Positions 3,661-16,631 of a stretch of 26,759 nucleotides of DNA are shown in pieces (position 1 is the first letter of the stretch; every line of letters begins with the position of its first letter). The DNA is from a virus. Under the pieces are notes generated by a model. It saw only the letters and a list, made by a program, of their open reading frames with translations, searched no databases and was not told the DNA's origin. The stretch covers positions 1-26,759 of IMG/VR virus record IMGVR_UViG_3300025647_000225. The stretch is one strand, 5' to 3'. Made by a program: the position numbers and the translations under genes.

Positions 3661-3888
3661 CTATTTATTCCAACCAACCATAGATGATCCGGGCTTTCTG
3701 CCCGCAGCTTTCGCCTGACTATCTAATGCGTTTTGAATCAGTTCCGCCCGCTGAATCACTTTCTTGCTCGGCTTCTTTTGCTTGGGCCGAATCGACATTG
3801 AGCAAATGCCATCCACGACGGTGTACCGGAATCGGAACACCTCGCAGTGCTTGCATTTACCGTCAACGATTTCGTGATACTTATTCAT
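3661..3888 (-). CDS. Small Cys-containing protein, 75 aa, behind an attenuator
   Basis: The frame stays open upstream to a TTG at 3939, but that would read through a terminator stem and its T7 tract. ATG at 3888 is therefore the likely start, although no ribosome site precedes it. The product begins MNKYHEIVDGKCKHCEVFRF with a single CxxC, has a FRFRYTVVDGI beta-strand segment, and ends in a basic helical tail. One CxxC alone is only half a zinc site. The gene stands alone, with its own promoter (3987-4014) and a terminator ending seven bases before the ATG, so expression should need read-through. The function is not recognisable. Confidence 0.6.
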   Translation of the reverse strand: MNKYHEIVDGKCKHCEVFRFRYTVVDGICSMSIRPKQKKPSKKVIQRAELIQNALDSQAKAAGRKPGSSMVGWNK

Positions 3889-3980
3889 GGGCACAAAAAA
3901 ACCGACCGAATCTGGAAGCACCCGTGATTCGATCGGCAATCCGCTGAGGCGGAGGTGTTTTGCTTGCGGGTGCTTCCACG
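3889..3980 (-). promoter_or_regulatory. Attenuator-type leader 1: 5' segment complementary to terminator loop
   Basis: The predicted transcript starts near 3980. Its 5' segment TGGAAGCACCCG (3978-3967) is a perfect 12-nt complement of the terminator loop CGGGTGCTTCCA (3924-3913). Pairing of the two crosses the terminator stem topologically, so it should prevent or distort termination. A small extra hairpin (CCGC-TGAG-GCGG, plus strand 3941-3952) lies between. The terminated RNA would be about 86 nt long. Confidence 0.7.
3895..3936 (-). terminator. Intrinsic terminator just before the 3888 start
   Basis: In the minus RNA an 11-bp stem, CCGATCGAATC with GATTCGGTCGG (one G-U wobble), encloses a 13-nt loop and is followed directly by seven T (3901-3895). 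Confidence 0.85.
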
Positions 3981-3986
3981 TCCGAA

Positions 3987-4014
3987 ATCATACGAACGGA
4001 TTCCGCACTGTCAA
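3987..4014 (-). promoter_or_regulatory. Sigma70-type promoter of leader 1
   Basis: A perfect TTGACA (4014-4009), a 16-base spacer and TATGAT (3992-3987, 5 of 6). It begins three bases after the stop of the upstream gene. Confidence 0.75.
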
Positions 4015-8957: not shown

Positions 8958-9872
8958 TTATTCAAACAGTGTTGGTGCTAATTGTTCCTGCTCTGCTATT
9001 CGCAGGTTTTTCGCTGCCACCTTAAAATACTCCTCTTTCAATTCGAATCCGATGAACTTGCGGCCAATCTTAATTGCACCGACTCCTTCAGATCCAATTC
9101 CAGCAAACGGCGACAATACAACGTCGCCTTCATTGCTCCATAGCTGGCAGCACCTGTGAATCACATCAAGCTGCAACGGGCACACATGCCGTTCATCTTT
9201 CTCTGACCGGCCCTCGGCAGCATTCAGCGTATTTGACTGCCGGATATCCATCCAAACAGGACTAGCGTATCGCTGCCATACATCAATGCTGTAATTTCCA
9301 GTGTGAGAGAATCCGTCACCAGCGAAGAATTCAAACGGTCCTTCTATCGGTTCCGCATTCTTGTCTGGCTTCCGGAATGTGCAAATGTAGTCCGGGATAC
9401 CTTGACGGCTCATTGATGAATCTTTGCACACCTGCTTATGCAGCAGCCCGAGAGCTTTCGTGCGTTGCATGGCCACAACTGGATCTTTCCAGATGCAGAC
9501 CTCAGAATGGTAGATAAACTCCGCTGACTGAAACGCACGTATAATATCGCCTCGAAAGTCCTTGATTCCAATAAAACCATCGTGCGACTTTGAGCTTGGC
9601 ATGTTCATGCAATGCACGCTGCACAGTCTCCCCGGCTTGAGCACTCGATACAGCTCCCGTATCAGGAATCTGAAATGCTCGAAGAATTCATCAGAGCTTT
9701 CGCAATTCCCCATGTCACGTTCGGAATCTGAATAAACGAACAGCGACACAAACGGCGGGGAAAACAATGAATAGCCGATTGATTCATCCGGCAATTCTCT
9801 GATCATCTCGCAGCAGTCCCCATTGTAAAGTTGCCACATCTCGCCATTTTGCTGATTGATTACTTCAGCCAT
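8958..9872 (-). CDS. DNA methyltransferase, N4/N6 type (SPPF motif)
   Basis: Start ATG at 9872, preceded by GGAGG at seven bases and overlapping the helicase gene by 13 bases. The 304-aa product has its catalytic motif SPPF (38-41) near the N-terminus and its AdoMet motif FAGIGS (256-261) followed by GRKFIGFEL near the C-terminus. This is the beta-class motif order of amino-methyltransferases. SPP[FY] is frequent in N4-cytosine enzymes, so m4C is slightly favoured over m6A. A conserved-looking HVCPLQ segment lies at 229-234. No partner endonuclease is present, so protection of phage DNA or regulation is likelier than restriction. Confidence 0.9.
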   Translation of the reverse strand: MAEVINQQNGEMWQLYNGDCCEMIRELPDESIGYSLFSPPFVSLFVYSDSERDMGNCESSDEFFEHFRFLIRELYRVLKPGRLCSVHCMNMPSSKSHDGFIGIKDFRGDIIRAFQSAEFIYHSEVCIWKDPVVAMQRTKALGLLHKQVCKDSSMSRQGIPDYICTFRKPDKNAEPIEGPFEFFAGDGFSHTGNYSIDVWQRYASPVWMDIRQSNTLNAAEGRSEKDERHVCPLQLDVIHRCCQLWSNEGDVVLSPFAGIGSEGVGAIKIGRKFIGFELKEEYFKVAAKNLRIAEQEQLAPTLFE

Positions 9873-11248
9873 TTCGGAACCTCCATCTTTTCTATTGGTC
9901 TGTAGGTTGTTCTGCCGCGGTCCTGTTTCGCACTGAAGTCGCTGCGGCTCATCGCAACTCGCATGCGTTCTTTCATTTCGTCGTGCATTCCTGCCTTCAG
10001 AGACACTGCCTTTGCAATTGCATGCTCCGTGTCAGTCGTCACTGAATAGCAATGCACTGGCCGCGTCTGGCCGAATCGGTAGCATCGACGCACTGCCTGA
10101 TATTTCTGCTCGAAGCTATAGCTAATCGAATGGAACACCATCTGATTACAGTGCTGCCAGTTCATTCCCATGCCGCTGATTGACGGCTTCGTGATGATGA
10201 CTCGTGCTGACCCATCGGAGAATTGATCAAGCCTGCTTTCCTTCTGCTGATCTGACATGCTCCCACGAATCTCGACCGCATCAGGAATCCGATGCACAAG
10301 ATCATCAGATTCGTAGTTTGAGTCACACCACACGATCCACTGATCATCATTTGAATTAACTATCTCTGCGGTCCTGTCAGCCCGAAATGGCGACGTGTAC
10401 CGCTTCTCCTGATGGATGTTTGTCGCACTAATGCCTGAGCAGTCGAACAAAAACCCGTCAGCCACTTTGCCTGGGACATGAACCGTTTCTGTGTGCTCAA
10501 TCAATTCTGGCAATTCATATCCAGAGTCATCACCGCCAATATCTGACGGCATCGAAACACAACATGCCCAATCGCACACCCAATCCCAGAAGGCATCGAT
10601 CGAGTGTCCTTTAAGCCTCCATTTTTGAGTGTTGCCAGAATCGTTTACAAAGTATTTTGACTGCATCTCTTGCTGTGAGCACACGCCAAGGAATTCTGCA
10701 TGTGCCCCCAATTCCATCGTATCATTTGGAGACGGTGTCGCAGTGCATGCCAATCGGTATTTCGCATCCGACCATTCATCAGTAAGCTGCTTCCGAATCT
10801 TTCCAGTCAATCCTTTCAGAATCGACGATTCATCGAGCACAACTCCGGCAAATGTTGATGTGTCGAATTTATCAATCTTCTGATAGTTGACAATCGATAT
10901 GCCGTGCTTCGGTGATTCTGATTGATCATCAGCAACCACAACATCCACCTGTATGCCGAATTTTGCTGCTTCGCGTTTCGTTTGATGCCTGACACCGAGC
11001 GGACATATTAGCATCACACTCCCGCCTGTCTCCGTGCAGACTCTCTCGGCCCATGCCAACTGACACAAAGTCTTTCCGAGTCCGGTGTCGAGGAACAACG
11101 CAGCACGCCCGCGTTTTAGTGCCCACGCAATTACTCTCTGCTGCCACTCAAACGCATTCGGATTCGTAGATGCCGGATCAACATCAAATCCGTAGCTCTT
11201 GCTGGCGAGTCGTTTCGACTGAATGAATTCGTCATATGTTCGCGTCAT
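9860..11248 (-). CDS. SNF2/SF2 helicase paired with the methyltransferase
   Basis: The frame is open from a GTG at 11275 that lies inside the terminator stem, so ATG at 11248 is the likely start. The ribosome site is weak (GGGCTG). The 462-aa product has Walker A TGLGKT (55-60), DESS in place of DEAH (139-142), a TATPSPND motif, and a C-terminal helicase domain with VITKPSISGMGMNWQ and a motif VI-like QAVRRCYRFGQTRP. That FGQ-x-RPV ending is typical of SNF2-related translocases. It overlaps the DNA methyltransferase by 13 bases, a pairing often seen in phages. It has its own promoter and attenuator-type leader. Confidence 0.88.
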   Translation of the reverse strand: MTRTYDEFIQSKRLASKSYGFDVDPASTNPNAFEWQQRVIAWALKRGRAALFLDTGLGKTLCQLAWAERVCTETGGSVMLICPLGVRHQTKREAAKFGIQVDVVVADDQSESPKHGISIVNYQKIDKFDTSTFAGVVLDESSILKGLTGKIRKQLTDEWSDAKYRLACTATPSPNDTMELGAHAEFLGVCSQQEMQSKYFVNDSGNTQKWRLKGHSIDAFWDWVCDWACCVSMPSDIGGDDSGYELPELIEHTETVHVPGKVADGFLFDCSGISATNIHQEKRYTSPFRADRTAEIVNSNDDQWIVWCDSNYESDDLVHRIPDAVEIRGSMSDQQKESRLDQFSDGSARVIITKPSISGMGMNWQHCNQMVFHSISYSFEQKYQAVRRCYRFGQTRPVHCYSVTTDTEHAIAKAVSLKAGMHDEMKERMRVAMSRSDFSAKQDRGRTTYRPIEKMEVPKWLK

Positions 11249-11355
11249 CTGTGCAGCCCATGAAAAAACCCGCACACCACAGGTCAGAGCTGCGATGGCG
11301 GGCTGAATCCGGTTTCCCGGCGATTCCTATTGTCACTCTGGCTCTGACTCAGAGT
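11249..11355 (-). promoter_or_regulatory. Attenuator-type leader 2 with kissing-loop complement
   Basis: The leader begins near 11355. A 5' hairpin (from the inverted repeat 11359-11331) presents loop AGTCAGAGC, of which GTCAGAGC (11348-11341) is a perfect 8-nt complement of GCTCTGAC (11290-11283). Seven of those nt are the terminator loop and one closes its stem. Between the two lies a hairpin with a CCGG-GAAA-CCGG core (plus strand 11305-11326), which is a GNRA-type tetraloop. The terminator then ends 14 nt before the ATG. Confidence 0.65.
11263..11302 (-). terminator. Intrinsic terminator before the SNF2-like helicase gene
   Basis: In the minus RNA CCCGC+CATCGCAG pairs with CTGTGGTG+GCGGG around loop CTCTGAC. 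That is 13 pairs with two G-U wobbles and one bulged U, followed by six T (11268-11263). The wobbles would be A-C mismatches in the opposite strand, which supports this direction. Confidence 0.85.
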
Positions 11356-11359
11356 GACA
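11331..11359 (-). promoter_or_regulatory. 10-bp inverted repeat over the start point (operator or leader hairpin)
   Basis: TGTCACTCTG-N9-CAGAGTGACA is perfect over ten bases. It begins three bases after the -10 and spans the expected start point, so it could bind a repressor. Its downstream part would also fold as the 5' hairpin of leader 2. Confidence 0.6.
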
Positions 11360-11361
11360 GG

Positions 11362-11389
11362 ATTATTGCGGTACAACTCCGCGTGTCAA
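11362..11389 (-). promoter_or_regulatory. Sigma70-type promoter of leader 2
   Basis: TTGACA (11389-11384), a 16-base spacer and AATAAT (11367-11362, 5 of 6). The -35 overlaps the stop of the HNH gene. Confidence 0.75.
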
Positions 11390-15543: not shown

Positions 15544-15620
15544 TTCCGCTCCTTCGCTCCGAGGCTTAAAACGTATATGGCTGTCAGTGCCAGAATCGCG
15601 TCGATGAGTAATTCATTCAT
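15537..15620 (-). CDS. Tiny one-span membrane peptide, 27 aa
   Basis: ATG at 15620 with GGAGT nine bases upstream; TGA at 15537-15539 overlaps the start of the 73-aa gene. The product is MNELLIDAILALTAIYVLSL GAKERKC, a single hydrophobic helix with a basic Cys end. It overlaps the stop of the ParB-like gene. The good ribosome site and overlaps on both sides are the support. Confidence 0.45.
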   Translation of the reverse strand: MNELLIDAILALTAIYVLSLGAKERKC

Positions 15621-16485
15621 TGTTGATTGACTCCATTTTTGCAACCCGTAGCGGTTCAATAGACGTTCGCCGGACACTTCTAATCCTTTTACCTTGAACA
15701 TACATATTGACGCAGGTGAGTGCCCGTTCTGCCAAGTCGGTTATATTCTTCCACCCATTAGGCGAGCTTTGGTTTTTCTTACGTTCAACCAGTTCTGACA
15801 ATGCCTGCACCCCATCCCTAAGTTTGCCTTCCTTCACCCCGGCATCAGTCACGAAGTTATGGAAAAACTCACGCACGATGCTCGTCTCATATCGCTTGTC
15901 ATGAATACAAAGCAACGCCACGCTTATCAGTGCGTTACTGAGCTTCCCTTTTGAAATGTTCCAGCTATCCAACTCAAGCAGTTCATTTTTCCAAATACTG
16001 ATCAGTTCGTAATGGCTGAAATTATGTCCGCCCCACTTGGACGTGGCAAATTTCAATGCGTTACTGATCTGAAGCCGATTCAGTAGAGCTGATTCAAGTC
16101 GGATGTTTTGCTCACGGCATCCACCAAAAAACTTATCTGATGATGTTTCCGCTGCCTGCGAATTATCAAAATGAGTATACAATTCACCGGCTTCACGGAG
16201 ATCGTTTACCTTGTAAAGCATTACCATCATCGTGTTTGACTTTGGACGCTCCAGCTTGTCGACTTTCCACAGCCACGCCCTCGTGTGACCATCCAGCTTG
16301 CATGCCGGTGTCTCACCATCAATCGTCGCTGCGTGAACCACGCGATGCACCGGGCTTAATTCCGAAAGATGCTTTTTCACTGCTGATTTCGCATGTGACT
16401 CTGTGTCTCGCTGCCGTGGATTGTCAGGAACTAAAATCCACTGATCAACAGACATTGGCAGTACGCTAATTGCTTCCATGTTCAC
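15613..16485 (-). CDS. ParB/DGHTR-like regulator at the head of the early operon
   Basis: The frame is open to 16620 through a terminator. The likely start is GTG at 16485 with GGAG eight bases upstream (an ATG follows at 16479), giving 290 aa. The N-terminal third has DNPRQRDTESHAKSAVKKHL, then ACKLDGHTRAWLW and MLYKVNDLREAGELYTHFDN. This is the layout of ParB/sulfiredoxin-like nuclease-fold proteins, with DGHTR in place of G-x-x-R. The rest is helical and basic (RKKNQSSPNGWKNITDLAER; VQGKRIRSVRRTSIE). A DNA-binding or regulatory role is likely. It is the first gene after promoter 16602-16631 and leader 3. Confidence 0.65.
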   Translation of the reverse strand: MNMEAISVLPMSVDQWILVPDNPRQRDTESHAKSAVKKHLSELSPVHRVVHAATIDGETPACKLDGHTRAWLWKVDKLERPKSNTMMVMLYKVNDLREAGELYTHFDNSQAAETSSDKFFGGCREQNIRLESALLNRLQISNALKFATSKWGGHNFSHYELISIWKNELLELDSWNISKGKLSNALISVALLCIHDKRYETSIVREFFHNFVTDAGVKEGKLRDGVQALSELVERKKNQSSPNGWKNITDLAERALTCVNMYVQGKRIRSVRRTSIEPLRVAKMESINNE

Positions 16486-16595
16486 AATGTTTTCTCCACG
16501 AAAAAACCCCTGGCAAATCAGCGAGCTGCACTTCGCGTCATTGTCAGGGGCTGGAGGTTGTTCAACTGTGAGACTTATTGTGCAGCAGTCCCAAC
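16486..16595 (-). promoter_or_regulatory. Attenuator-type leader 3 with loop complement
   Basis: The leader starts near 16595. GCTGCAC (16586-16580), about nine nt from the 5' end, is a perfect 7-nt complement of GTGCAGC (16531-16525) in the 8-nt terminator loop. The T tract ends four bases before the GGAG ribosome site of the 16485 gene. Confidence 0.6.
16501..16550 (-). terminator. Intrinsic terminator before the 16485 gene
   Basis: In the minus RNA CCCCTG pairs with CAGGGG, extended past one A-C mismatch by CAA/TTG. An apical GCGA/TCGC stem closes loop AGTGCAGC. Six T follow (16506-16501). Confidence 0.8.
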
Positions 16596-16601
16596 GCGGA
16601 C

Positions 16602-16631
16602 AGTATTGGCGAAACCGCACGCGAATGTCAA
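16602..16631 (-). promoter_or_regulatory. Sigma70-type promoter of leader 3 and the early operon
   Basis: TTGACA (16631-16626), an 18-base spacer and AATACT (16607-16602, 4 of 6). It lies just downstream of the terminator that ends the structural operon. Confidence 0.6.

Follow-up and report, generated by a model that had tools for sequence, protein, structure and literature searches.

Does the terminator that precedes a phage gene pair, through its loop, with the beginning of its own leader RNA, and does this pairing control transcription into the gene? The question is raised by a stretch of 26,759 nucleotides (virus record IMGVR_UViG_3300025647_000225; hereafter the window), for which the original prediction had claimed three units of promoter, leader and terminator, before the starts at 3888, 11248 and 16485, with a terminator loop matching the 5' segment of the leader. 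This arrangement could be confirmed from the sequence, with complements of 12, 8 and 7 nt, respectively. All three leaders lie on the minus strand, follow a TTGACA promoter located immediately after the preceding gene or terminator, are about 90-110 nt long and carry an intrinsic terminator whose T run stops just short of the start codon.

In leader 1, a consensus scan places the promoter TTGACA-N16-TATGAT (11/12 matches) at 3987 to 4014, and sequence and folding place the hairpin GTGG-AAGCAC-CCGC (3966 to 3979) at the RNA 5' terminus. The pairing segment TGGAAGCACCCG (3978-3967), likewise assigned by sequence and folding, is a perfect 12-nt complement of CGGGTGCTTCCA (3924-3913), which lies inside the 13-nt loop ACGGGTGCTTCCA (3925-3913) of the terminator (3901 to 3937, -20.1 kcal/mol); the complementarity runs on into the stem of the 5' hairpin. 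The terminator ends in a T7 tract (3901-3895), followed by GTGCCC and the ATG at 3888. The gene behind it (3661 to 3888, minus strand, with an in-frame GTG at 3894) encodes a product of 75 amino acids without a match in Pfam or PHROG.

Leader 2 has the promoter TTGACA-N16-AATAAT at 11362 to 11389 (consensus scan) and the 5' hairpin TGTCACTCTG-AGTCAGAGC-CAGAGTGACA at 11331 to 11359 (sequence and folding). Its pairing segment GTCAGAGC (11348-11341) is complementary over 8 nt to the segment GCTCTGAC (11290-11283) of the terminator loop, the terminator spanning 11268 to 11303 (-21.7 kcal/mol) with the loop CTCTGAC at 11289-11283. Downstream lies a gene for an SF2/SNF2-type DNA helicase (9860 to 11248, minus strand; Pfam Helicase_C and SNF2-rel_dom, phrog_62). 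Leader 3 combines the promoter TTGACA-N18-AATACT (16602 to 16631; consensus scan) with the 5' hairpin TGGGACT-GCTGCACAATA-AGTCTCA (16569 to 16593; sequence and folding), whose segment GCTGCAC (16586-16580) is complementary over 7 nt to GTGCAGC (16531-16525) in the apical loop AGTGCAGC (16532-16525) of a two-tier terminator (16506 to 16551, -19.4 kcal/mol, with a 4x4 internal loop UGAC/UGAU). The gene behind this leader (15613 to 16485, minus strand, with an in-frame GTG at 16491) belongs to phrog_2615, a family of unknown function.

The 5' hairpin of each window leader starts within a few nt of the predicted transcription start, and the pairing segment is its apical loop in all three cases. 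The description of this segment as a free 5' end therefore had to be revised: with a hairpin loop as the pairing partner, the RNA can end up as a kissing complex, in place of a free end bound to the terminator loop. When the 5' part of each window leader was shuffled 20,000 times with dinucleotides preserved, the observed complement length was reached in 1, 167 and 589 shuffles for leaders 1, 2 and 3, respectively (product about 2.5e-8). From this we conclude that the complementarity of leader 1 is remarkable by itself, and that leaders 2 and 3 (p about 0.008 and about 0.03) are each only suggestive by themselves. The latter values speak for chance complementarity, an explanation that is refuted for the class by the recurrence, controls and covariation described below, and to which we assign next to no probability.

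Elsewhere in the window, the other strong terminator preceding a promoter (16679-16648) has no complementary 5' loop partner. A strong hairpin, GCGGGTGCCCG...CGGGTGCCCGC followed by TTTTT (14407-14368, minus strand, -27 kcal/mol), is likewise without a loop partner. A further TTGACA promoter (3289-3260, minus strand) has no leader terminator, and its -10 box is flanked by an 8-bp inverted repeat, CAGCATTG/CAATGCTG, which is likely to be an operator.

The design is not confined to one phage. The plan of promoter, 5' hairpin, terminator with complementary loop and ATG was found in about 50 leaders of related phage contigs, with differing loop sequences. For this catalogue, a complement of at least 6 nt and a same-strand gene downstream were required, and related sequences in it are not independent. 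The relatives were gathered via the helicase behind leader 2, with other genes also used as queries, and many of the recurrences precede the same helicase gene. Intrinsic terminators were located with a scanner that also tests whether a hairpin further upstream has a loop complementary to that of the terminator; reversed, complemented and direct versions of the loops served as controls. A complement of at least 7 nt was present in 37 of the 220 terminators ending up to 45 nt before an open reading frame, compared to 0, 0 and 2 of 220 in the respective controls. Terminators located elsewhere showed little excess (17 of 602, compared to 7, 7 and 14 of 602).

The recurrences extend to a distant, A+T-rich relative without a TTGACA promoter (L014, helicase 43% identical), which has the device twice, once at the same position before the helicase gene. 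They also include cultured phages, namely Flavobacterium phage FCV-1, before gp61 in a region common to 65 Flavobacterium phage records, and the Cellulophaga phages phi10:1 and phi19:1, before gp024 or its homologue. Two contigs with genes related to those of the window and with TTGACA promoters, L120 and L124, have one leader each, the complement in L124 being 14 nt long; the rest of the L120, L123, L124 and L334 records held no additional case. No convincing case was seen in the whole or partial records of S-LBS1, EBPR podovirus 2, Leeuwenhoekiella phage Arctus_1 and Flavobacterium phage morran9-1, nor in the Firmicutes prophage loci examined, and no near DNA match to the window was found among GenBank phages. 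Two kissing hairpin-terminator units, L143 872-902 (Hallella bergensis) and L201 247-271, have no start of an open reading frame up to 80 nt downstream and are possibly stand-alone small RNAs.

The anatomy of an attenuator, i.e. a promoter, a leader and an intrinsic terminator ending just before the gene, is present in the catalogued leaders. Every one of them reads into a same-strand gene, as the entry condition demands, with a median of 16 nt from the end of the terminator stem to the start codon. In 34 of 49 leaders, the hairpin is preceded within 32 nt by a TAnnTTTG box of the Bacteroidota type, mostly at a distance of 3-9 nt, so that the hairpin comes to lie at the 5' end of the RNA. The distance between the 5' hairpin and the terminator loop is 39 ± 5 nt. 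Spacer and terminator length are negatively correlated (Spearman -0.51), short terminators going with long spacers. An ATG is found in the 5' part of only 20 of 49 leaders, so that a leader peptide as the general mechanism is unlikely.

The downstream genes encode, among others, SF2 helicases, DUF3987 and primase-polymerase proteins, replication-initiator-like proteins and DUF6291 proteins, and many are homing endonuclease genes of the HNH/NUMOD4 or GIY-YIG type. The latter are strikingly frequent behind kissing leaders (L038 40457-41146, L041, L045, L120, L212, L285, L290 and L294), and the leader may travel with such genes or restrain them. A second conserved element, about AATAGTTTAT-GGTATCTTAAAACC and capable of folding into a small hairpin, lies between terminator and start codon in L331 (phi10:1, 10338-10380) and after the terminator in L294, L301 and L321.

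Two-tier terminators, counted by eye, are common (L288, L293, L300, L281, L294, L053, L038, L285, L229, L290 and leader 3 of the window, 16551-16506). An internal loop recurs in them, a few pairs beneath the kissing loop, and the types seen are UGAA/GGAU, UGAU/UGAU (tandem G-A) and AGUA/GAA (loop-E-like).

Such recurrent motifs could be protein sites, which would fit antitermination by a phage or host protein that recognizes the two hairpins in complex, in the manner of nut or put sites. However, the motifs are of several types and leaders 1 and 2 of the window are without them, and we regard this explanation as improbable.

The only close copies of the three window leaders are identical to them, so that the evidence for covariation comes from relatives. 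In an alignment of the leaders preceding one replication-gene family (A2), 95.8% of the cells of the loop-loop helix are paired and five of the eight pairs are altered on both sides. The four-helix structure of this alignment is paired to 94%, compared to 34-46% with the partners slid, and none of 500 shuffles reached any of its measures. Read by eye, the pairing is present in all independent leaders that have a terminator before the A2 replication gene. The leaders L314 and L319, which are 92% identical, differ by two double-compensated loop pairs (GGTCAGA/TCTGACC and CGTGAGA/TCTCACG), and two pairs of the terminator stem are also compensated. We searched the relatives for a loss of complementarity despite a kept gene and terminator and saw the opposite, complementarity being kept while the sequence changes; the co-varying 5' segments and loops that were to be sought in related genomes were found as compensatory changes in both loops. 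Thus, the claim that the repeated architecture is functional receives strong support, since it recurs in relatives, its loops covary and the controls are near zero. As judged from this comparative evidence, the loop-loop element is almost certainly real and under selection as a class.

The same data bear on a reading at the DNA level, according to which the inverted repeats are repressor operators flanking the start site. In each leader, one copy indeed lies near the predicted start site. However, the sequence varies at nearly every site (48 distinct versions among 50) and the copies sit in apical RNA loops; we rejected this reading on account of the sequence diversity and the covariation of stems and loops, and consider it extremely improbable.

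Next, we considered how the two loops could act on termination. In the catalogue, the contiguous loop-to-loop complement is 6-9 nt long, in agreement with the roughly 5-9 Watson-Crick pairs expected of kissing-loop pairing. When the RNA was cut before the 3' arm of the terminator, the long-range helix was the minimum-energy fold in 42 of 50 leaders, and in the full-length RNA it was so in none of the 50, the terminator being formed in 49 (both counts describe leaders that had been chosen for their complementarity). As it is never the minimum-energy fold of the finished RNA, a simple nested antiterminator was rejected for that state. Since the nascent RNA prefers the long-range helix and the finished RNA prefers the terminator, the helix most likely serves as a transient antiterminator. 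According to a rough length estimate, a kissing complex is geometrically compatible with the whole terminator in 46 of 49 leaders; with the whole terminator formed, the spacer is estimated to be tight in 11 of 49 leaders and too short in three of these, and by the same kind of estimate the contact is always possible while only the upper terminator hairpin has formed. Since kissing complex and terminator are mostly compatible in the finished RNA, the pairing might just as well have no effect on termination or enhance it.

In an explanation without a switch, the loop-loop contact would protect the terminated RNA or the 5' end of the mRNA, or strengthen the terminator, as part of a stable 5' module. 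That the geometry of most leaders permits kissing while both stems stay intact, that the loop sizes fit known kissing complexes and that many terminators have structured tandem-GA or loop-E-like internal loops would agree with such a module, which nevertheless leaves unexplained why these terminators sit almost only directly between promoter and gene. We consider it unlikely, if slightly less so than control by an antitermination protein.

Overall, the explanation that we favour, with somewhat more confidence than doubt, is a kissing-loop attenuator in which loop pairing allows read-through and the terminator closes when the 5' loop is occupied. Each element would be a self-contained transcription attenuator on its own promoter. 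The first nucleotides of the leader RNA would fold into a hairpin with a loop of 6-12 nt; some 40 nt further on, an intrinsic terminator would begin to emerge with its 5' arm and its loop, the latter being exactly complementary to the first loop. Before the 3' arm of the terminator exists, both loop sequences would pair as a kissing or long-range helix, which would hold open or strain the terminator, so that a fraction of the polymerases would read into the gene. With the 5' loop occupied by something else, the terminator would close and an RNA of about 85-95 nt would be released ahead of the start codon. The best reading of the element is thus that of a loop-loop (kissing) transcription attenuator for early genes, i.e. 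genes for helicases, primases, replication proteins and homing endonucleases, with start sites, termination and read-through being predicted from sequence. The loop-loop element is likely to control termination ahead of the gene that follows. In which direction it acts, and on what trigger, we infer: from the nascent folds together with the length estimates, we prefer a model in which pairing counteracts termination and occupation of the 5' loop switches the gene off, and our confidence that pairing prevents termination by default is moderate.

The pairing segments comprise 48 distinct sequences among 50 and have a G+C content of 58%; in nine genomes with at least two leaders, the match between cognate loops spans 6-9 nt and that between non-cognate loops no more than 4 nt. 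Purely intramolecular pairing would not need such orthogonality within a genome, which together with the diversity between phages speaks for a rival explanation, self-antisense control of copy number or immunity. Here, the terminated RNA of about 90 nt would accumulate with gene dosage and act in trans, kissing the 5' hairpin (or the terminator loop) of nascent leaders and thereby forcing termination. Loop differences among leaders and phages would then have the cause that they have in plasmid incompatibility groups. The downstream genes, largely replication genes and homing endonucleases, are plausible targets of a dosage feedback, and short spacers make the cis complex tight after closure of the terminator, which would leave the loops free. 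P4 immunity is a precedent. Another is IsrK of Gifsy-1, a terminated leader RNA whose target in trans is the read-through transcript of the same leader (PMC4825925). On the other hand, intramolecular pairing should outcompete pairing in trans in most leaders, and the loop diversity could be drift with compensation. We therefore consider such control possible but doubtful. Equally tentative is its extension, by which the terminated transcript would be its own antisense regulator across a widespread class of phage leaders, whose orthogonal loops would serve to gauge genome dosage (or to label superinfection groups) and to silence replication and homing endonuclease genes via a dedicated terminator, without a protein or an antisense gene.

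If the kissing-loop attenuator holds true, the early genes of many phages would be equipped with a compact, recurring RNA switch that consists of just a 5' hairpin plus a terminator and could be re-programmed by exchanging two loops. It makes directly testable whether co-transcriptional loop-loop pairing to a terminator can set read-through, and the leaders would be a source of natural orthogonal attenuators, with cultured examples in FCV-1, phi10:1 and phi19:1. The search of Rfam 15 gave no match to the window at E ≤ 1 and none in five related loci at the gathering score. A limited search of the open-access literature, with subscription papers and preprints outside its reach, returned no description of phage kissing-terminator leaders, and no Flavobacterium phage transcriptomes were found. 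The kissing-loop leader appears to be a kind of built-in RNA on/off switch that has not been described before.

No defining test assigns the element to any of the known systems with which we compared it. The plasmid antisense attenuators and copy control systems (pT181 and pIP501; ColE1 RNAI/RNAII and R1 CopA/CopT) share with the phage leaders loop-loop contacts of 6-8 nt, specificity groups and a conditional terminator before a replication gene. Their partner loop resides on a separate antisense RNA, whereas both partners of the phage leaders are on the same sense transcript. An attenuator of the pT181/pIP501 type is defined by a countertranscript promoter located within the leader or shortly after it, and an antisense promoter, searched for as the TAnnTTTG type only, was found in just 3 of 49 leaders. 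The immunity RNAs P4 CI and P1 c4 also derive from phage leader RNAs with self-complementary segments and premature termination ahead of replication genes, but they are processed RNAs acting in trans, with no contact of a 5' hairpin to a terminator loop that is repeated per operon. HK022 put and lambda nut are phage RNA elements just after the promoter that alter termination as well. However, put is a fixed sequence that modifies RNA polymerase for many downstream terminators, whereas each phage leader pairs with one dedicated terminator. The conserved sequence or structure by which put and nut are recognized has no counterpart in 48 distinct pairing segments among 50 and no Rfam match.

The prophage leader of Gifsy-1 IsrK resembles the phage leaders in its prophage promoter, its short terminator-ended RNA and the read-through mRNA of the downstream gene, but short IsrK acts in trans on translation and the word "kissing" is absent from the paper (PMC4825925). 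The nearest described mechanism is that of the cobalamin riboswitch env8, in which the L5-L13 kissing loop brings an aptamer loop into contact with the hairpin loop of the expression platform (PMC10907184). As proposed for the phage leaders, regulation is in cis and runs through a kissing contact between a leader hairpin loop and the loop of the expression-platform hairpin, but the riboswitch platform holds the ribosome site and the contact needs a ligand-binding aptamer (PMC10907184). In the phage leaders, by contrast, no aptamer is visible, the platform is an intrinsic terminator, and the loops are arbitrary in sequence but complementary to each other.
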